Shown piece by piece: positions 20-62,106 of a DNA stretch of 64,000 nt (position 1 is the first letter of the stretch; each line of letters begins with the position of its first letter). The stretch covers positions 1 through 64,000 of the forward strand of contig NZ_JAFWFN010000025.1 in NCBI RefSeq assembly GCF_017515565.1, written 5' to 3'. The notes below the pieces were generated by a model. It was given only the letters and a program-made list of their open reading frames with translations, was not told where the DNA came from and did not search any database. Position numbers and translations under genes: made by a program. Source of the stretch: Halomonas sp. GTDB taxonomy: Bacteria > Pseudomonadota > Gammaproteobacteria > Pseudomonadales > Halomonadaceae.

Positions 20-236
20 GATCGAGATTTCCTCGCAAATGTGATGGAACATATTCCGCGTTCAGCGGTATACATACGGTCATCTTAAATTCGTCTTGTG
101 TTGCAGACGTAGAAAATAGCCGCAAAAGGTACCACATATTGGCCCTTTCGGGCAGTGTTAGGCGAGACTCGCGCTTGCTGCCAAGGGGTTGCGGTGATAC
201 CGTTTGCATCCGCACAGGGTTCCCGGTCTGCACTAG

Positions 237-1309: not shown

Positions 1310-2251
1310 TTGCCTATTAAACCGCTGTTTTCGCACGGGCCGTTGCCGGGTTACCGGCTGTTTTTCTGCGTGTTGGCAGCAAGCGTTTTAATGTTTGTTG
1401 ACCAGCGATTTACGCGTATGGAAGATGTTCGCGCCCAAATGACTATGATTGTTGCCCCTATTCAGTGGGTAGTTAGCGTGCCTAGCGATCTACTGAACTG
1501 GGGGGCACTTGCTCTTTCCGATCAGCAAGCGTTGGTGGATGAAAATCGCCGCTTACGTGAGCAGATTCTGACGCTTTCTCACCGCGGTCAGCGTTTAGCT
1601 AGCTTAACCGCTGAAAATGCTGAGCTGCGTAGCCTGCTACAGGCCGCAGAGCGACATGAAATCCCCTACATGACCGCCGAACTACTCTCCCTGGATAACG
1701 ATCCTTTTAGCCACCAGATGGTAGTTGACCGCGGGCATCGCAATGGTGCCTATGTTGGCCAGCCCGTCATTGACGCATTTGGTCTAGTGGGGCAGGTGAC
1801 GGCCGTATCGGCATACTCCAGTCGCGTCCTCTTACTCGCAGATGCAAGTCATGCGCTTCCTGTTCAGGTGAATCGGAATGGGCTGCGCTTTATCGTGCAG
1901 GGTACCGGACGTTATGGCAGCGTTAGCGTCCTGCATGTGCCTGATACTGCCGATATTCGTGAGGGTGATTTGCTTACTACCTCTGGGTTGGCCGAGCGTT
2001 TTCCGCCCGGCTATCCGGTAGCGAGAGTAACCGAGGTGTATCATGACCCCGGCCAGCCATTTGCCCAGGTAACCGCTGAACCCTCCGCCCAGCTGCAGCG
2101 TTCGCGGCACTTTCTGCTGCTCTTCCCGCCACCGCCCGAGGAGTTAGGTGATGCGGATTGGGATGAGGACATGGATATTTCAGCCAGTGCGATCCACGCG
2201 GCGCAGCGCCTTGGGCTACCCAATCAACCAGTGACTCAGGAGGTGCCCTAA
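1310..2251 (+). CDS. mreC: MreC cell-shape protein
   Basis: Bitopic inner-membrane protein linking MreB filaments to periplasmic wall enzymes. The 313-residue product has one membrane segment near residues 17-35, then a coiled-coil-like stretch around residues 75-115 rich in Glu, Leu and Arg, then the beta-rich periplasmic domain (VVDRGHRNGAYVGQPV and VLLLADASHALPVQV are typical). Translation appears to start at a TTG at 1310 with a GGGGGA ribosome binding site just upstream; no ATG lies in frame near it. It sits 23 bases after mreB and overlaps mreD by one base. Confidence 0.94.
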   Translation: MPIKPLFSHGPLPGYRLFFCVLAASVLMFVDQRFTRMEDVRAQMTMIVAPIQWVVSVPSDLLNWGALALSDQQALVDENRRLREQILTLSHRGQRLASLTAENAELRSLLQAAERHEIPYMTAELLSLDNDPFSHQMVVDRGHRNGAYVGQPVIDAFGLVGQVTAVSAYSSRVLLLADASHALPVQVNRNGLRFIVQGTGRYGSVSVLHVPDTADIREGDLLTTSGLAERFPPGYPVARVTEVYHDPGQPFAQVTAEPSAQLQRSRHFLLLFPPPPEELGDADWDEDMDISASAIHAAQRLGLPNQPVTQEVP

Positions 2252-2739
2252 TGGCACGAGCACCCGTGGTGCCACTGGTAGTGGTGTGGTTGAGCTTTTT
2301 ACTGGCGCTGTGTTTGCAAGTAATGCCTCTGGCTGATGGTTGGCAGGTATATCGACCCGAGTGGATTGGCCTCATGCTGGTCTACTGGTGTATGCGGGCG
2401 CCTAGTCGGGTAGGGGTGTTTCACGGTTTTGTGATTGGTATTTTGATGGATCTAATTGAGGGAACATCGCTTGGCCAACATGCGGTCATACTTTCGCTGT
2501 TGGCATTTTTATGTGCGTTGGTTTACCCGCGCTTTCGTACCTACTCCTTAGTTCAGCAAGCGGTATTAGTGCTGGTTTTATTGGGCATTGTGCAGTTGAT
2601 TGAGCAGTGGTTGCGCACGCTAACGGGTGATTTTTCGATCCACTTATCCTTCTTGATACCCTCTATAATTAGTGCGTTGCTATGGCCATGGCTTGCGACC
2701 ATGCTACGCGCATTGGAGCGACGCCTAGCAGGTGCCTGA
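2251..2739 (+). CDS. mreD: MreD rod-shape membrane protein
   Basis: Small polytopic inner-membrane partner of MreC. The 162-residue product is strongly hydrophobic with about five predicted membrane segments and contains the family-typical MRAPSRVGVFHGFVIGILMD region near residues 48-68. Its ATG shares one base with the mreC TAA stop (TAATG), so translation is probably coupled. It is the last gene of mreBCD; a possible folded RNA element follows its stop. Confidence 0.93.
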   Translation: MARAPVVPLVVVWLSFLLALCLQVMPLADGWQVYRPEWIGLMLVYWCMRAPSRVGVFHGFVIGILMDLIEGTSLGQHAVILSLLAFLCALVYPRFRTYSLVQQAVLVLVLLGIVQLIEQWLRTLTGDFSIHLSFLIPSIISALLWPWLATMLRALERRLAGA

Positions 2740-2782
2740 TACAGGCGTTGTGTAATGATGAGTATCAGGTGTTTACACGCCT
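2735..2782 (+). other. Interlocking inverted repeats between mreD and maf
   Basis: Two pairs of complementary arms interleave. CCTGATAC (2735-2742) pairs with GTATCAGG (2762-2769). AGGCG-TTG-TGTAA (2743-2755, three-base bulge) pairs with TTACACGCCT (2773-2782). The order 5'A-5'B-3'A-3'B is that of an H-type pseudoknot or of two mutually exclusive hairpins. There is no T tract, so it is not a standard terminator. Function unknown. Confidence 0.45.
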
Positions 2783-2821
2783 ATATGCCGGTGCGAACTA
2801 ACCGCACACTGAGAGGCTCTG

Positions 2822-3454
2822 ATGAGTAAACCGCTGCGATTAGACGCTACCACAGCAACGCGTAAAGAGCCGGTGCTATGCCTTGCCTCTGCGTCACCAA
2901 GGCGCAAAGCGCTACTGGCCTCCATCGGTGTTCCCGTGAGTGTGTTGCCCAGTGACGTAGATGAAACGCCTTTAGTTGGCGAGATGGCTAGTGCTTATGT
3001 TGAGAGGCTGGCGATTGCCAAAGCACAAGCGGCAGTGCCGCAAACCAAGTTGCCGGTGTTAGGGGCGGATACGGCGGTTGTGATTGATGGCACCATATTG
3101 GGCAAGCCTCGCGACGAACAAGACGCCGCCGCGATGCTCTCAGCCCTTTCTGGGCGAACCCATCAGGTGCTAACGGCGGTCGCGGTGGTGGGGCCCCAGG
3201 GTGTACTCTCTTGCTGTGTCACCACGCAAGTGAAGATGCGTGTAATCGATCAGGATGAAATAGCTTGCTACTGGCAAACCGGCGAGCCAGTTGATAAGGC
3301 CGGTGGCTATGCGATTCAAGGCCTAGCGGCGGTGTTTGTTGAGCAAATTCACGGTAGTCACTCCGCCGTCGTGGGGCTGCCGCTATTCGAAACAACGCGC
3401 TTGTTGCGCCAGCAAGGGGTGCCTATATGGGCGGGGCGTTATCGACGTACGTGA
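2822..3454 (+). CDS. maf: Maf-family nucleoside triphosphate pyrophosphatase (YhdE type)
   Basis: Maf/Ham1-fold pyrophosphatase that hydrolyses nucleoside triphosphates (dTTP/UTP for the YhdE branch) to monophosphates and pyrophosphate. The signature [12 protein letters not shown] is near residue 21, followed by DVDETP and LGADTAV, and KAGGYAIQG near residue 160. At 210 residues it is slightly longer than E. coli YhdE because of an N-terminal extension of about 17 residues. The ATG has a GAGAGG ribosome binding site. The mreBCD-maf-rng order is conserved and ties it to shape and division genes. Confidence 0.93.
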
Positions 3455-54668: not shown

Positions 54669-55958
54669 ATGGCAGGCTCACCCAACGCATCCAATATGGT
54701 TGTCGGGCTGGACATTGGAACGTCCAAGGTCGTCGCGATAGTCGGTCAACCCACTGATGATGGCGGGATCGAAATTGCGGGAATCGGTTCTCATCCATCG
54801 CGTGGCATGAAACGCGGCGTGGTCATTAATATTGAATCAACTGTCCAGTCCATTCAACGAGCCGTTGAAGAAGCTGAGTTGATGGCTGGCTGCGATATTC
54901 ATTCTGTTTATGTTGGCGTTGCCGGTAGCCATATTAGCTCGATGAACTCGGATGGCGTGGTAGCCATCAAAGAACGTGAAGTAACGCCATCGGATATTGA
55001 TCGTGTGATTGACTCGGCCCGTGCCAGGGCTGTCTCGGAAGGGCAGCGGGTATTACATGTTCTGCCTCAAGAATTCTCAATCGATGCCCAAGGTGGCATC
55101 CGTGAACCACTTGGAATGTCGGGCGTTCGGCTAGAAGCGCAGGTGCATCTTGTCACTGCTGCATTAAATGCAGTGCAAAACATTGAAAAATGTGTTCGCC
55201 GCTGTGGGCTGGATGTTGATGCTATTATTCTTGAGCAGCTTGCATCCAGTATGGCAGTACTCACTGAAGATGAGCGCGAGCTGGGCGTTTGCATGGTCGA
55301 TATTGGCGGTGGTACCACTGATATGGCTATATTTACCGAAGGGGCAATTCGCCATACTGCCGTAATTCCCATTGCCGGTGATCAAGTCACTAATGACATC
55401 GCAATGGCGCTGCGTACGCCCACCCAGCATGCTGAAGAGATTAAAGTAAAATACGCCTGCGCGCTGACTCACCTCGCCGCAAGTGATGAAATGATTAAAG
55501 TACCCAGTGTAGGGGATCGTCCATCGCGAGATTTATCACGCCAGGCGTTAGCCGAAGTGGTAGAGCCGCGCTACGAAGAACTCTTTACACTGGTAGGAGA
55601 TGAATTACGCCGTAGTGGCTATGAAGACATGGTGGCCGCTGGTGTTGTGCTTACCGGCGGTACCTCGCGCATGGAAGGCGTTAGCGAACTAGCAGAAGAG
55701 ATTTTTCATATGCCGGTTCGCATTGCCTGCCCGCAAAATGTGAGGGGGTTGGCGGACGTGGTGCGTAATCCTATTTATGCAACGGGCGTTGGCTTGCTGC
55801 ATTATGCCTTGCAGGAAATGCGCCATGGGCAAGGCCTAGAAAGCCATGGGGGAGTCGTTGCCGCGCATAAAGGGCGTAACGAGCTTGCCCGGCGTGATAG
55901 CAAGGAAGGCAATCCAGCGCTGGCGAAAATTAAAGGCTGGTTCAAAGGAAATTTCTGA
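54669..55958 (+). CDS. ftsA: FtsA, actin-like Z-ring membrane anchor
   Basis: Tethers FtsZ to the membrane and recruits later division proteins. The actin-fold motifs are [16 protein letters not shown] near residue 11, [20 protein letters not shown] near residue 205, and [13 protein letters not shown] near residue 330; the 1C subdomain lies between. The C-terminal amphipathic membrane helix ([10 protein letters not shown]) is intact. The 429 residues are close to E. coli (420). ftsZ follows after 34 bases. Confidence 0.96.
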
Positions 55959-55992
55959 CAGGGCCGCAAGCGCGGTTCAGGAGACGGGGCTT

Positions 55993-57168
55993 ATGTTCGA
56001 ATTGGTAGATAACGCACCCTCGAGCAGTGCGGTCATCAAAGTGGTCGGCGTTGGCGGCGGCGGCGGTAATGCTGTCAACCACATGGTCGAGAACAACATC
56101 GAAGGCGTAGAGTTTATTTGCGCCAATACCGATGCCCAGGCGCTTAAACGCGTATCCGCAAAAACGGTTTTGCAGCTTGGTAGTGAAATAACCAAAGGGT
56201 TAGGCGCTGGCGCCAATCCAGAGGTTGGGCGTCAAGCTGCCATGGAAGATCGAGACCGAATTGCTGAGCTGTTAAATGGCGCTGATATGGTGTTCATTAC
56301 CGCTGGCATGGGCGGTGGTACAGGTACTGGTGGAGCACCAGTCGTTGCTCAGGTGGCCAAAGAACTGGGCATTTTGACGGTGGCTGTGGTGACCCGCCCC
56401 TTCCCGTTTGAAGGGCCTAAGCGAATGCGCGCGGCAGAAGAGGGCATGAAAGAGATCTCCGAGCACGTGGACTCGCTGATCACTATTCCTAACGAAAAGC
56501 TACTTTCAGTGCTTGGTAAAAATGCCACGCTGCTTACCGCGTTTAGTGCCGCCAACGATGTGTTACTAGGCGCGGTACAAGGTATAGCCGAACTGATTAC
56601 AAGTCCGGGTATCATCAACGTCGACTTTGCTGACGTGCGCACTGTTATGTCTGAAATGGGCATGGCTATGATGGGTACCGGCGGTGCGACCGGTGAAAAC
56701 CGTGCGCGTGAAGCCGCGGAAAAAGCGATCCGTAGCCCGTTGCTGGAAGATATCGACCTACACGGCGCTCGCGGCATCCTGGTAAATATTACTGCGGGCC
56801 CTGACTTGTCGATTGGTGAGTTCAACGATGTAGGTGCTACCGTTCAAGAGTTTGCCTCACAGGAAGCCACTATCGTCGTTGGGACCTCCATTGATATGGA
56901 AATGACTGATGAGCTGCGGGTAACGGTTGTTGCAGCTGGCTTGGATGGCAGCAAGGCGAAGACGGCCACGCGTGAGCCTGCACGTCGATCAGCAGCAGAG
57001 TCATCTGATTATCGCAAGCTCCAGCAGCCAACCGTTATGCGTCAGCAGGCGACGGCTCGCGCCGAAGCACCTGCACCGGCTGCTAAGCCCCGGCCAGAAA
57101 AGCGTCGCGCCTCAGAGGCAGACGATTATCTGGATATCCCTGCTTTTTTGCGCCGCCAGGCGGATTAA
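55993..57168 (+). CDS. ftsZ: FtsZ, tubulin-like division ring protein
   Basis: GTPase that forms the Z-ring. I chose the ATG at 55993 with a GGAG site (391 residues); the frame upstream overlaps ftsA. The N-terminus has [17 protein letters not shown], the tubulin signature [15 protein letters not shown] follows, and the T7 loop region [11 protein letters not shown] is present. A Pro/Ala-rich linker (about residues 318-375) leads to the conserved C-terminal peptide [13 protein letters not shown], which binds FtsA and ZipA. Confidence 0.97.
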
Positions 57169-57192: not shown

Positions 57193-57283
57193 ACAGCAAA
57201 CGAGAGTTTTATTGGTTAAAGCGCTTGTTTGCTGTTAAAGTGAACACTGTTTGATAACTTTTTCCTTTTGCGGTGTTTGCTGT
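57193..57283. promoter_or_regulatory. Three copies of the 9-mer ACAGCAAAC/GTTTGCTGT upstream of lpxC
   Basis: ACAGCAAAC is at 57193-57201; its reverse complement GTTTGCTGT is at 57227-57235 and again at 57275-57283. The last two extend to GTTTGCTGTT. A GTTAAAG heptamer also occurs twice (57215-57221, 57234-57240). The first pair could form a hairpin with a 25-base loop. All lie between ftsZ and the lpxC start, so they may be operator sites controlling lpxC or an ftsZ 3'-end structure. No strong sigma-70 promoter was recognised here. Confidence 0.5.
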
Positions 57284-57327
57284 TTCTTGAGCCGATCACC
57301 GCCGTCATCAGAGCTCGACCACTGCCC

Positions 57328-58239
57328 ATGATCAGACAACGCACACTACAAAACGTCATCCGAGCCACTGGAGTGGGTCTGCACTCTGGCAAAAAAGTCC
57401 ACTTGGCTTTGCGTCCGGCGCCGGTAAATACGGGTATTGTGTTCGTCAGAACCGATTTAGATCCTGCGGTGCATGTGCCCGCTCGTGCAGAGCTGGTTGA
57501 AGATACAACGATGTGCACAGCGCTTTCTAACGAAGGTGTAAAAGTGGCAACGGTTGAACACCTAATGTCAGCTTTCGCGGGATTGGGTATCGACAACGCA
57601 TATGTAGATGTCAGTGCTCCTGAAGTGCCTATTATGGACGGCAGTGCTAGTCCGTTTGTTTTTTTGATCCAATCAGCAGGTATTCTTGAGCAGGATGCGG
57701 CTAAGAAATTTATCCGCATTAAGCGTCGCGTCGCGGTGAGCGATGGCGATAAAGAGGCTGTATTTCTGCCGCATCAGGGCTTCAAAGTTGCGTTTGCCAT
57801 CGACTTTGACCACCCCGTATTTGATCAGCAAAAGCAAACTGCGCTTATTGATTTCTCGACGACTTCGTTCGTTAAAGAAGTCTCCCGCGCGCGTACTTTT
57901 GGCTTTATGCGCGATTTAGAGTTTTTGCGCTCTAATAATCTAGCGCTCGGCGGCAGTCTTGATAATGCTATTGTGGTTGACGACTACCGTATCGTCAATG
58001 AAGGCGGGCTACGCTATGAAGATGAGTTCGTCAAACATAAGGTGCTTGACGCTATTGGCGACCTTTACCAGCTAGGTTATAGCCTGATCGGTGAGTTCCG
58101 TGGCATAAAGTCGGGTCACGCGCTTAATAACCAGCTTTGCCGTGAGCTAATGGCGCAGCCTGATGCCTATGAGATCGTGACGTTCGAAGGAGAGAAAGCT
58201 GTTGCGCCTATCTCCTACGCGGCTCCTGCCATGGCATAG
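57328..58239 (+). CDS. lpxC: LpxC, UDP-3-O-acyl-GlcNAc deacetylase
   Basis: Zinc enzyme for the committed step of lipid A synthesis. I chose the ATG at 57328 (303 residues; E. coli 305), where homology begins with [11 protein letters not shown], although the ribosome binding site is weak; an upstream in-frame ATG is at 57268. Zinc-ligand segments are [14 protein letters not shown] and [24 protein letters not shown] is also typical. It follows ftsZ, as in E. coli, and ends at a hairpin terminator. Confidence 0.96.
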
Positions 58240-58338: not shown

Positions 58339-58812
58339 TTAGTTTTCAGTTTCAGAGTGGTGTGGGGCGTGGGATGCTAGGCGCTCTAGTGCCTTTTTGA
58401 GCGCTGGGTTGTCGGTATCTTTAGCGCACTCAGCCAAGGTTTTTCCAGCGTTGCTAGAAAGCGATCTAGTATAGCGCTTGGGGCTCTCCACTGGTCGTAC
58501 AGGGCGCACTTTTAAGGTAAAAGCGCTGACGCTTTCAAACCCTGGTAACTGATGGAGCAGGGTAAGTAGGTGCCGTTGCTCGTAGCGAAGCCACGTTAGC
58601 CAGCTGGCTTGGCCGCTAATAAGTGTTAAGCGCCCATCACGAAACCCGCCTACGAAAATATGCTCACGCATTTCTTCGGGTAGGTGAGCGCGTAAGTGCC
58701 GCTGTGCTTGGTCAATTAAGCGAGACTGACGCATTAGTTGCCCAACATCGCCAGACTTAGACAGCAGTTGGGTGATGGGCTGTGCGTGAGATCGCTTAAC
58801 CTTTATACTCAT
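58339..58812 (-). CDS. DciA-like (DUF721) protein
   Basis: The 157 residues match the DUF721 pattern: an N-terminal helical part, then beta-rich KH-like sequence (HIFVGGFRDGRLTLISGQASWLTWLRYEQ) and a Lys/Arg-rich tail. DUF721 proteins include DciA, which loads or operates the replicative helicase DnaB in bacteria lacking DnaC; that role is family knowledge. In Pseudomonas a DUF721 gene also lies between lpxC and secA. It is convergent with lpxC and divergent from the small exported protein next to secA. A weak start context leaves the exact N-terminus open. Confidence 0.82.
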   Translation of the reverse strand: MSIKVKRSHAQPITQLLSKSGDVGQLMRQSRLIDQAQRHLRAHLPEEMREHIFVGGFRDGRLTLISGQASWLTWLRYEQRHLLTLLHQLPGFESVSAFTLKVRPVRPVESPKRYTRSLSSNAGKTLAECAKDTDNPALKKALERLASHAPHHSETEN

Positions 58813-58900: not shown

Positions 58901-58935
58901 GAAGAGCCTAACACGCCCAGGAGCTAGCCCACAGC

Positions 58936-59304
58936 ATGTCGTTAACGCCAGATATCTTAACCGCTTCGCCACGGCGGCAGCGCCGACATGGCCTAGCGCG
59001 CTGGTGGTTGGCTGGGCTTCTGGTAAGTTGCTTGTTGCCTGCAAGTTTACACTCGGCAGATGCGTTTCGCGGCAGTGAGCGTAGCGTTAGTATCTGCTTT
59101 TGGGTGCCAGCTATTTTACGCGCACAGTCCAAGTGGATTGCCAAAAAGCGTCGTGCGCTGCGCTACTGGGCTAGCACCCTTACTCGCCAGTTAACACGAC
59201 TACCTGCCCGCACTCGTTTATTACCGGTGGTGAAGCGTCGTCTAGTGGCGGCTAAAGATGTGCTTACCCAGCGCGGCCCTCCTGCTTTATTTTTCCTACG
59301 TTAG
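58936..59304 (+). CDS. Small exported basic protein upstream of secA (SecM-like candidate)
   Basis: I do not recognise a named family. The 122 residues start with a long basic N-region (residues 12-22, six Arg or His), a hydrophobic core (WWLAGLLVSCLLPASL, residues 23-38) and an AxA-type cleavage site after Ala43, so it should enter the Sec pathway. The mature part is very basic, with no Asp or Glu after residue 48 except one Asp near residue 108, and ends RGPPALFFLR. The Arg-Gly-Pro-Pro (113-116) resembles proline-rich ribosome-arrest motifs such as RAGP and RAPP. Its position 69 bases before secA is that of E. coli secM. An AGGAG site lies 12 bases before the ATG. Arrest activity is inferred. 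Confidence 0.7.
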   Translation: MSLTPDILTASPRRQRRHGLARWWLAGLLVSCLLPASLHSADAFRGSERSVSICFWVPAILRAQSKWIAKKRRALRYWASTLTRQLTRLPARTRLLPVVKRRLVAAKDVLTQRGPPALFFLR

Positions 59305-59331
59305 AACTAATTTATTTGCCTTATATAAAAA

Positions 59332-59354
59332 GGGCGCCTGGGTGTAGGGCGCTC
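59332..59354 (+). promoter_or_regulatory. Hairpin in the secA leader
   Basis: GGGCGCC (59332-59338) pairs with GGCGCTC (59348-59354), including one G-U pair, around a nine-base loop. It lies between the small exported gene and secA, 11 bases before the weak GGAA ribosome binding site at 59365-59368. The stem itself does not cover the ribosome binding site, so any control would need a larger fold. Confidence 0.4.
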
Positions 59355-59373
59355 ATGATGATTTGGAACTTTC

Positions 59374-62106
59374 ATGATTAATAATTTGTTACGTAAAGTA
59401 GTTGGCTCCAAAAACGATCGCGAAGTAAAGCGCATGCATAAAAATGTGCTTAATGTGAATAAGTTAGAAGCAGAGCTGGAAGGGTTAAGCGATGCCGATC
59501 TGCAGGGTAAAACGGCGCTTCTGCGTCAACGGCTAAGCGATGGTGAAACGCTCGACAGCCTGCTGCCTGAGGCCTTTGCGGTAGTGCGCGAAGCGAGCAA
59601 GCGGGTAATGGGCATGCGTCATTTTGATGTGCAAATGGTCGGTGGTTTGACGCTGCACCGCGGGCGCATTGCGGAAATGAAAACCGGCGAGGGTAAAACG
59701 CTGGTAGCGACCCTGGCGGTTTATTTAAACGCACTACCTGAGAAGGGTGTGCACGTTGTTACCGTGAATGATTATCTGGCGCGCCGGGATGCTGAGTGGA
59801 TGCGTCCGTTGTATGAGTTTTTGGGCCTCTCCATCGGCGTGATTTTTGCGGGTCAAAGTGGTGAAGAGAAACGCCATGCCTACCAGTGTGACATCACCTA
59901 CGGCACCAACAACGAGTTTGGTTTTGATTACCTGCGCGACAATATGGCGTTCGCGCTTGAGGATAAAGTACAGCGCGGCCTGCATTACGCCATTGTCGAT
60001 GAGGTTGATTCAATTCTCATAGATGAAGCGCGTACACCACTGATCATTTCTGGCGCGGTCGATGAAAATACCGACCTTTATGGCGTCGTAAACCGTCTTG
60101 CCCAGCAATTGGAAAAAGGCGAGGTCTTAGAAGATGAAGAGGCCACTGTAACTGGCGATTTTCTGTTAGATGAGAAGCAGAAACAGGTTGAGCTCACCGA
60201 GCAGGGCCATAACAAAGTAGAAGCCTTGATGCGCGCTGAGGGGTTGCTGGGTGAAGAGGACTCACTTTACGCTGCGCAAAATCTTAATCTTCTACAGCAC
60301 ATGCACTCTGCCCTAAGGGCTCGCCACCTTTATCACCCCGACGTTGATTATATTGTCGCTGAAGACCAAGTTGTTATTGTCGATGAGCATACCGGTCGCA
60401 CAATGCCGGGCCGCCGCTGGTCTGAGGGGCTTCACCAGGCCGTTGAAGCCAAAGAGGGCGTTACCGTTCAGCGCGAAAGCCAAACGCTTGCATCCACTAC
60501 CTTTCAGAACTATTTCCGCCTTTATGAAAAACTGGCGGGTATGACGGGTACGGCCGATACAGAAGCCTTTGAGTTTCGTCAGATATATGGCCTAGACGTG
60601 ATAGTGATTCCGACTAATCGTGTGCTAGCTCGTAAAGATCTGAATGACCTTGTCTTTCTTAGTGCGGAAGAGAAGTACGAAGCCATTATTAAGGATGTTA
60701 AAGCCGAAACAGAAGCCGGTCGGCCCGTGCTGGTAGGTACCGCTTCAATTGAAACCTCTGAGTTTCTTGCCCGCTTAATGCGCGAGGCGGGGCTGAAATT
60801 TAATGTCTTGAACGCCAAGCAGCACCAGAGCGAAGCGGAAATCATTGCCCAGGCAGGGCGTCCAGGGGCGATTACTATCGCCACCAACATGGCCGGGCGT
60901 GGTACCGATATTATGTTGGGGGGTAACTGGGAAGCAGAGGCAGCGAAGCTGCAAAACCCTACCCAGGAACAAATTGACGCCTTAAAAGCTGAGTGGCAAA
61001 AGCGCCATGATGGCGTTTTACAAGCGGGCGGTTTGCACGTAGTAGGTTCCGAGCGTCACGAATCACGCCGCATTGACAACCAGCTGCGTGGCCGTGCCGG
61101 TCGTCAGGGTGACCCAGGCTCCACACGTTTCTTCCTCTCCTTGGAAGATAGCCTGATGCGGCTGTTTGGCTCTGACCGAGTCAAGCGGTTGATGCAGGCG
61201 CTAGGCTTAGAACGGGGCGAAGCCATTGAGCATAAAATGGTTTCCAACGCCGTTGAGCGTGCTCAGAAAAAGGTGGAAGGGCATAACTTTGATATTCGTA
61301 AGCAGCTGCTTGAATACGATGATGTGGCCAACGACCAGCGTCGTGTCATATATGATCAGCGTAATGAAGTTCTGGCGTCTGAAGATATCTCTGATGCAGT
61401 GCTGGGTATTCGTGAAGAGGTCATGGAAGAAGCGATCAGCGATTTTGTGCCGCCGCAAAGTTTGGTGGAGCAGTGGGATCTGCCGGGTTTAGAAGCGCAC
61501 CTGAAGACAGAGTTTAATCTTGATGCAGCGGTGGTGCAGTGGTCAGCAGAAGATGAGCGACTCAGTGAAGAGAAGCTCCGTGAGCGCCTCCAAACCATGC
61601 ACCGCGAAGCTTATGAAGCAAAAGTTGAGGCAGCAGGCGCTGCGTTGATTCGTCGCTTTGAGAAGCAGGTGATGCTGCAGGTGCTGGATACTCGCTGGAA
61701 AGAGCATCTTCAGTCGATGGATCATCTGCGCCGTGGTATCCACCTGCGCGGCTACGCTCAGAAGAATCCTAAGCAGGAGTACAAGCGTGAATCGTTTGAG
61801 CTGTTCCAAAATCTGCTAACCAACATAAAAGCAGACGTCACGCGCATTCTAAGCCATGTACAGGTTCGCCAGCCTGAAGAGGTTGATGCCCTAGAGCAGA
61901 AGCGCCGTGAAGAGTTAGCCCGTGAAAAAGCTACCGCGGACAGCCGACACGACGAGCCCGCAACGCAAAATAGCGAGGGCGCTCAGGAGCTACCTGGCGC
62001 TGACGGCCGCCCGCTGCGTCGGGAAGGGCCCAAAGTGGGTCGCAACGACCCATGTAGCTGTGGTTCAGGCAAAAAATATAAGCAGTGCTGCGGTAAGTTA
62101 AGCTAA
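59374..62106 (+). CDS. secA: SecA preprotein translocase ATPase
   Basis: Motor ATPase that drives proteins through SecYEG. The 910 residues (E. coli 901) contain Walker [14 protein letters not shown] near residue 105, the DEVDS Walker B ([19 protein letters not shown]), the helicase motif [16 protein letters not shown], and [13 protein letters not shown]. The preprotein-binding domain and helical scaffold follow. The C-terminal zinc SecB-binding tail is intact ([19 protein letters not shown]). The ribosome binding site is weak (GGAA), which would suit control by the upstream small gene. argJ follows after 38 bases. Confidence 0.97.

Follow-up and report, generated by a model that had tools for sequence, protein, structure and literature searches.

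A secA leader ORF of Halomonas predicted to encode an export-sensing RGPP arrest peptide

The locus upstream of secA

In the window (the whole 64,000-nucleotide stretch of Halomonas sp. DNA that was analysed), secA is preceded by an ORF of 122 codons whose product ends in RGPPALFFLR and which stops 69 bases short of the secA ATG (Table 1). Further 5' lie genes that we take to be ftsZ and lpxC, followed by dciA. An earlier note on this DNA had described this frame, its C-terminus, RGPP at codons 113–116 and the distance to secA, and all of these coordinates were reproduced. Its other observations hold as well: the ribosome binding site that it had reported is an AGGAG 12 bases from the ATG, the weak site of secA consists of GGA only, and the Sec-type signal has a basic N-region, a hydrophobic core WWLAGLLVSCLLPASL and, judged by eye, ADA at residues 41–43. 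The 122-codon frame is a real gene and almost certainly encodes a SecM-like arrest peptide. Initiation at the ORF may be lowered by the 12-base gap between AGGAG and ATG. GGAG occurs within 16 bases 5' of the chosen start at 79 of 81 loci, where starts were chosen with the help of GGAG, and in several divergent genera the ORF start lacks it. The window protein has no match in Pfam or NCBIfam, and neither a promoter before the ORF nor a terminator matching a simple consensus was found between 58750 and 59450.

Table 1. Coordinates of genes and of known, predicted or possible features around the ORF in the window
Feature	Coordinates	Strand	Remarks
ftsZ (presumed)	55846–57168		5' of the ORF; name by recognition
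lpxC (presumed)	57268–58239		5' of the ORF; name by recognition
dciA	58339–58812	opposite	5' of the ORF; Pfam DciA, E 3e-8
SD-like AGGAG of the ORF	58919..58923	+	12 bases 5' of ATG (long spacing)
Predicted arrest-peptide ORF	58936..59304	+	122 aa; ATG 58936, stop codon ends 59304
Signal sequence, residues 1–43	58936..59064	+	core ARWWLAGLLVSCLLP hardly varies; cleavage site judged by eye
Conserved basic middle block, residues 45–71	59068..59148	+	R45, E48, R49, C54, P58, R62, A63, S65, A69
Putative arrest block AAKDVLTQRGPP, residues 105–116	59248..59283	+	conservation
RGPP codons 113–116	59272..59283	+	predicted P-site codon 59278–59280, A-site codon 59281–59283
Unconserved tail, residues 117–122	59284..59301	+	alignment
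Possible hairpin	59332..59354	+	arms GGGCGCC / GGGCGCTC; predicted only
Possible hairpin TCATGA...TCATGA	59353..59377	+	secA SD in loop, start codon in 3' arm
Weak SD of secA, GGA (in TTGGAA)	59365..59367	+	sequence
secA	59374..62106	+	presumed regulated gene; named by recognition

Conservation of the protein

The ORF was read at 111 loci, comprising at least 80 from a scan of genome contigs (all titled Halomonas, Vreelandella or Halovibrio), 30 from as many chosen genomes in 18 genera of the family, and the window's own copy. As the earlier note had expected of an export sensor, it lies directly 5' of secA at all 111, and frameshifts in relatives, which that note would have counted against its proposal, are rare: the frame is intact and carries R[AG]PP at 109 of the 111, the window included. 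These 109 frames give 108 distinct proteins, 105 with RGPP and three with RAPP. The two exceptions, L041 and L252, were left out of this set. L041 comes from a frameshifted assembly, in which the RGPP-coding stretch sits in another frame; the ORF is frameshifted in both L041 and L276 (Halomonas olivaria TYRC17 / genome G223; assembly 86% complete). In L252 (genome G024) RGPP is present and the frame runs into secA without a stop codon, giving a natural in-frame join of the ORF to secA (frame 1408–3300 of that locus). Since four other examined genomes of the same genus have separate short frames, this join could stem from an isolated indel or from faulty assembly.

Among the 108 proteins, the motif arginine stands at residue 103–129, the tail beyond the motif has 1–14 residues and the distance to secA is 15–210 bases (median 70). 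The C-terminal RGPP and the signal, which the earlier note had singled out, are indeed the most conserved parts. By eye and conservation, the signal consists of a basic N-region, a 16-residue core and an AxA-like end. Never changing are L29, C32, L33 and P35 in the signal and R113, P115 and P116 in the motif, with G114 kept in 97% and D108 in 94%; these last two, together with W23 to L28, P58, R62 and A63, are the further positions kept in more than 90%. By contrast with the signal and RGPP, no residue between 79 and 103 exceeds 42%. At conserved places, the third letters of fourfold codons vary by 0.7–1.9 bits (1.66–1.86 at R113 to P116), and at each of the four RGPP positions every synonymous codon of its residue is in use, so selection acts on the protein. 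The middle block follows the pattern R..ER.V..C...PA..RA.S...A and, because it lies about 42–68 residues before the arrest motif, would probably be outside the tunnel at arrest.

The spacer from the CLLP of the signal to R113 measures 71–78 residues in all 108 proteins. This is unusual because in published secA and secDF uORFs the distance between signal and motif mostly varies widely (PMC10987492, section 12), bearing in mind that less variation is to be expected within a single family of related genomes than in a mixed group.

Distribution and origin

A match was found in 257 of 275 genomes of the family, in 20 of its 24 genera, and within these 20 genera in 257 of 259 genomes. The 18 genomes that do not match consist of 16 in the other four genera and two incomplete genomes of the window's own genus that also yielded no secA. 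In an order-wide draw of 390 genomes there were 28 matches, namely 18 halomonads and 10 weak ones (E 0.001–0.01). For 145 genomes of the order a position of secA was obtained, and in 110 of these the DNA upstream of it was read; with 12 of the 16 non-carrying halomonads, this gave 122 regions. Six of them come from carriers and 12 from the non-carrying halomonads; the other 104 represent 40 further families, one of these 104 being only 215 bases long. When a RAPP-like motif was sought in the last 40 residues of ORFs of at least 40 codons ending no more than 450 bases from secA, all 116 regions that lack the gene were negative, and hence also the 104 from the 40 other families.

A different gene occupies this place in the 12 non-carrying halomonads that were read. 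In the non-carrying genome G157 the ORF before secA encodes an M23 peptidase (PF01551, E 8e-33), and tblastn found relatives of it 5' of secA on the same strand in 12/12 non-carrying halomonads and in 79 of the 104 regions from other families, versus 0/6 carriers. The window's own genome has matches to the M23 protein in three places, none of them at secA; the best is 47% identical over residues 190–300, and another is 28% identical over 72–309 and has an internal stop. On a SecA tree built from 48 N-terminal parts of 400 residues (root not fixed), a branch with support 100/99, recovered in 100% of 200 bootstrap trees, separates the 29 carriers from the rest. Because the sampled carriers form one group, one origin suffices, and the distribution would be explained by a single gain that coincided, at least roughly, with the disappearance of the M23 gene from that place, in either order of events. 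A single origin would then go together with displacement of the M23 peptidase gene and hardly any later loss.

Relation to SecM and to published arrest peptides

The obvious comparison is E. coli SecM, which likewise lies between lpxC and secA, has a Sec signal and carries an Arg-small-X-Pro sequence near its C-terminus. The distance from P-site codon to secA is also comparable, being 82 bases in E. coli SecM versus 96 for the predicted P-site codon of the window. In the window, however, dciA stands on the other strand between lpxC and the ORF, and the arrest sequences differ (FxxxxWIxxxxGIRAGP in E. coli SecM, AAxDVLTxRGPP in the window family). Homology to SecM was rejected, profile comparison giving a probability of 0.5%. 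None of 63 members matched the Pfam SecM models (PF06558 / PF10818) at E <= 1, E. coli SecM itself matching PF06558 at 4e-58 as a control. The earlier note had read the protein as a divergent export sensor of the SecM type; these results suggest that the window family is probably an independent analogue, SecM-like in its presumed function, and not a divergent SecM. A SecM-like sensor would thus seem to have been invented a second time, independently, in SecM's gene neighbourhood. PF10818 (SecM_small) presumably stands for short SecMs and, if so, shares with the window family a short spacer from signal to arrest site; it was not among the Pfam families matched by alignment members. A median spacer of 71 is given for short SecMs in PMC10987492. 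Two other candidate affiliations were discarded: descent from a known domain, for which Pfam matches were scattered and weak (commonest DUF4328 in 8/63 members, best E 0.004), and a Tat signal, the twin arginines having no constant place in the sequence. The best match among PDB chains had E 3.2.

Closer parallels are found among RAPP arrest peptides. ApdA and ApdP, which precede secDF2 in actinobacteria and Alphaproteobacteria (PMC10987492, introduction), have R-small-P-P at the arrest site, as does the window ORF at its predicted one. Moreover, RAPP-like secA uORFs from a subset of the GTDB order Pseudomonadales have been described as uA_RQH_Pseudomonadales (Fujiwara et al. 2024, PMC10987492), and the representative of this group, which carries R109GPP, causes arrest in vitro on ribosomes of both E. 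coli and B. subtilis, with fAP > 0.9 (section 7 of that paper). Four properties that characterize RAPP-like (RQH) members are also those of the window family, which is a small protein without annotated function encoded before secA (111/111), with an N-terminal secretion signal or TM segment (by eye and conservation), a conserved C-terminal RAPP-like motif (RGPP in 105 and RAPP in 3 of 108) and a spacer longer than 30 residues (108/108). Both groups are secA uORFs of the same GTDB order with an N-terminal signal and RGPP, an arginine at 109 as in the published representative is found in 6 of the 108 halomonad proteins, and we know of no difference between the two. GTDB has moved most Oceanospirillales to Pseudomonadales, and the emended order lists Halomonadaceae (PMC7498684; see also PMC12903922).

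Since such a uORF was seen in none of the other sampled families of the order, the halomonad family is very probably identical with the published group and would then already be catalogued. In one family of the sampled order, six genomes match OprF at E 1e-77 or better and thus look like pseudomonads. Halomonas is not named in the main text of PMC10987492, and since our searches found no paper joining 'arrest peptide' with Halomonas, or secA with Halomonas and SecM, we infer the identity of the two groups. The earlier note's suggestion of a new member is to be corrected in that the kind, and very probably the family, is already in print. What the present analysis adds is a near-complete distribution, an apparent single origin with M23 displacement, the tight spacing between signal and motif, and support for a switch arm in leaders of the Halomonas type.

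Expected arrest at RGPP and proposed release by export

RGPP is a published arrest motif (PMC12992588, PMC10987492) and, among the RAPP-like motifs tried, generally gave the most robust arrest; it is also the tetrapeptide with the lowest mean frequency across 10 major bacterial groups (PMC12992588). In the window's own genome, CGNGGNCCNCC, the DNA word that encodes RGPP, was counted 47 times in any frame versus 240 for the reversed word, about one fifth as often. On ribosomes arrested by RAPP peptides, Pro-tRNA enters the A site and formation of the peptide bond is blocked (PMC10951233), and in toeprints of RQH members the third motif residue was in the P site in all cases (PMC10987492, section 9), by analogy with which the P and A sites in Table 1 were placed. 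Taken together, published RAPP/RGPP arrest and the avoidance of RGPP make a stall with Pro115 in the P site the expected outcome, and by analogy with these relatives the peptide very likely stalls its own ribosome at RGPP.

Arrest would thus occur with Pro115 in the P site and Pro-tRNA for residue 116 in the A site, a chemistry borrowed from published relatives. The peptide would be a monitoring substrate of Sec: fast export of the nascent chain would pull the stalled ribosome free, while under slow export the ribosome would stay on the leader and more ribosomes would start on secA. Since the C-terminal motif is known to jam ribosomes, a sensor raising SecA when export is slow is the most likely reading, and we consider it likely that the ORF is an export sensor for secA, release by export and control of secA being modelled on analogous systems. 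The proposal of the earlier note, an RGPP export sensor of secA, is hence supported by the conservation of RGPP and signal, the constant adjacency to secA and published RGPP arrest. For the explanation as a whole, a Sec-exported RGPP arrest peptide whose stalling on slow export favours translation of secA, our confidence is likewise good. Halomonas is a production host, so control of SecA in this genus would be of practical use.

The ORF might instead encode a small exported envelope protein with a function of its own, RGPP and the adjacency to secA being incidental. The invariant Cys32 would fit such a protein, as would the conserved middle block at residues 45–71, probably too far from the arrest site to lie in the tunnel. 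However, what is kept is the signal, the spacing and RGPP, whereas residues 79–103 and the tail are poorly kept; RGPP is a motif that bacterial proteomes (PMC12992588) and the window's own genome avoid, and the ORF precedes secA at every locus read. An envelope function is therefore improbable.

Leader RNA and the secA start

In Halomonas-type leaders, pairing is possible between TGCGTGGGCA, which lies about 7–17 bases beyond the start of the predicted P-site codon, and TGCCACACGCA, just 5' of the secA SD. The pairing arm is kept despite indels that shift the frame of the tail (L058 versus L061, L060 versus L070, and L063 versus L069, the last with one arm letter changed), and changed arm letters that still pair are seen only in a wider set (L312, L315, L317 and L318). 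In permutation tests, in which relatedness of the leaders inflates the result, none of 2000 permutations paired as well as the cognate arms of 44 Halomonas-type leaders for either 3' segment, and 15/2000 and 0/2000 were as good for 28 leaders of other genera. By a second score based on the helix, the corresponding figures were 0/2000 for Halomonas-type leaders, 40/2000 for other genera (24 leaders) and 167/2000 for the window's clade. These groups follow the rank order of the search list and are approximate clades only; L311 and one leader with an N were also left out of the leader tests. A control segment (P+24..44, 41 Halomonas leaders) was equalled by only 8 of 2000 permutations, so that relatedness or an inner hairpin contributes to the arm signal.

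In the 20 closest Halomonas leaders, 96% of cells in the outer helix pair versus 12–61.5% when the arms are slid; no outer-helix pair has changed on both sides in these leaders, and column shuffles reach the outer-helix scores in 500/500. The permutation results support the view that in Halomonas-type leaders the RNA past the motif coevolves with that next to the secA start, which a stall-operated switch would need. The coevolving arm would be evolutionary evidence, in one clade, that the position of the ribosome in the leader matters to secA.

The window's own clade gave no such signal in the arm-permutation test, 408/2000 and 1945/2000 permutations being as good for its 50 leaders. The window leader is no more stable than shuffles (z +0.61), and stalling brings no rise in the computed exposure of its secA SD (0.89 free, 0.76 stalled). 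The possible TCATGA hairpin pairs in 78% of cells (six positions, 44 clade leaders) versus 12–52% when slid, with changes on one side only, and of 36 segment pairs scanned in the clade, one reached z -3.3, uncorrected for the number of tests. For the window's own leader, we give even odds to unmasking of the SD by the stall. A general rise in SD exposure on stalling across the 108 leaders was rejected as weak: the mean unpaired value was 0.476 free versus 0.536 stalled, the shift exceeded 0.1 upwards in 30 leaders and downwards in 11, and the mean duplex z against shuffled arms was only -0.24.

The negative arm test in the window's clade, together with the closeness of the ORF to secA and the weak secA SD, would also suit a leader ORF that merely couples translation or keeps the secA RNA open, with no arrest of the nascent chain. 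Coupling alone, however, needs no conservation of amino acids at RGPP and in the signal, and sits badly with a distance to secA that ranges from 15 to 210 bases, which makes this reading still less probable than an envelope function.

Least probable of all is a stall that senses something other than bulk Sec export, such as lipoprotein maturation or membrane-targeting time: the spacer is narrow beside the widely varying published uORFs and the signal contains a lipobox-like L-V-[GS]-C (L29 and C32 in 108/108, G or S at 31 in 106/108), but the strict lipobox pattern fits only 10/108, the core before the Cys is short, and a proline and an AxA-like site follow as in an ordinary signal. In a related reading, which we find doubtful, the halomonad peptide would be a timed sensor of one targeting step and not of bulk export, and the RNA just past the arrest codons would serve as a switch arm that is kept across reading frames. 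If true, arrest would be linked to delivery to the membrane, either lipoprotein-type or strictly timed, through the narrow distance of 71–78 residues between the invariant signal core with its LV[GS]C and RGPP.

Matches to known RNA families

Rfam STnc50 at 59286–59365 (E 0.0005–0.002, below cut-off) was taken as chance; the model was found neither in E. coli secM nor, at E 0.5, in ten relatives, and a different stretch gave a match to a snoRNA family at E 0.005. The Rfam Xoo8 sRNA model has no match in the window between 56900 and 57600. In two other loci it matches about 1.5–1.7 kb 5' of the ORF, presumably near lpxC (L056 1300–1498 and L053 1254–1452; E down to 3e-11, below cut-off), and weaker matches were seen in four others of the ten loci searched.
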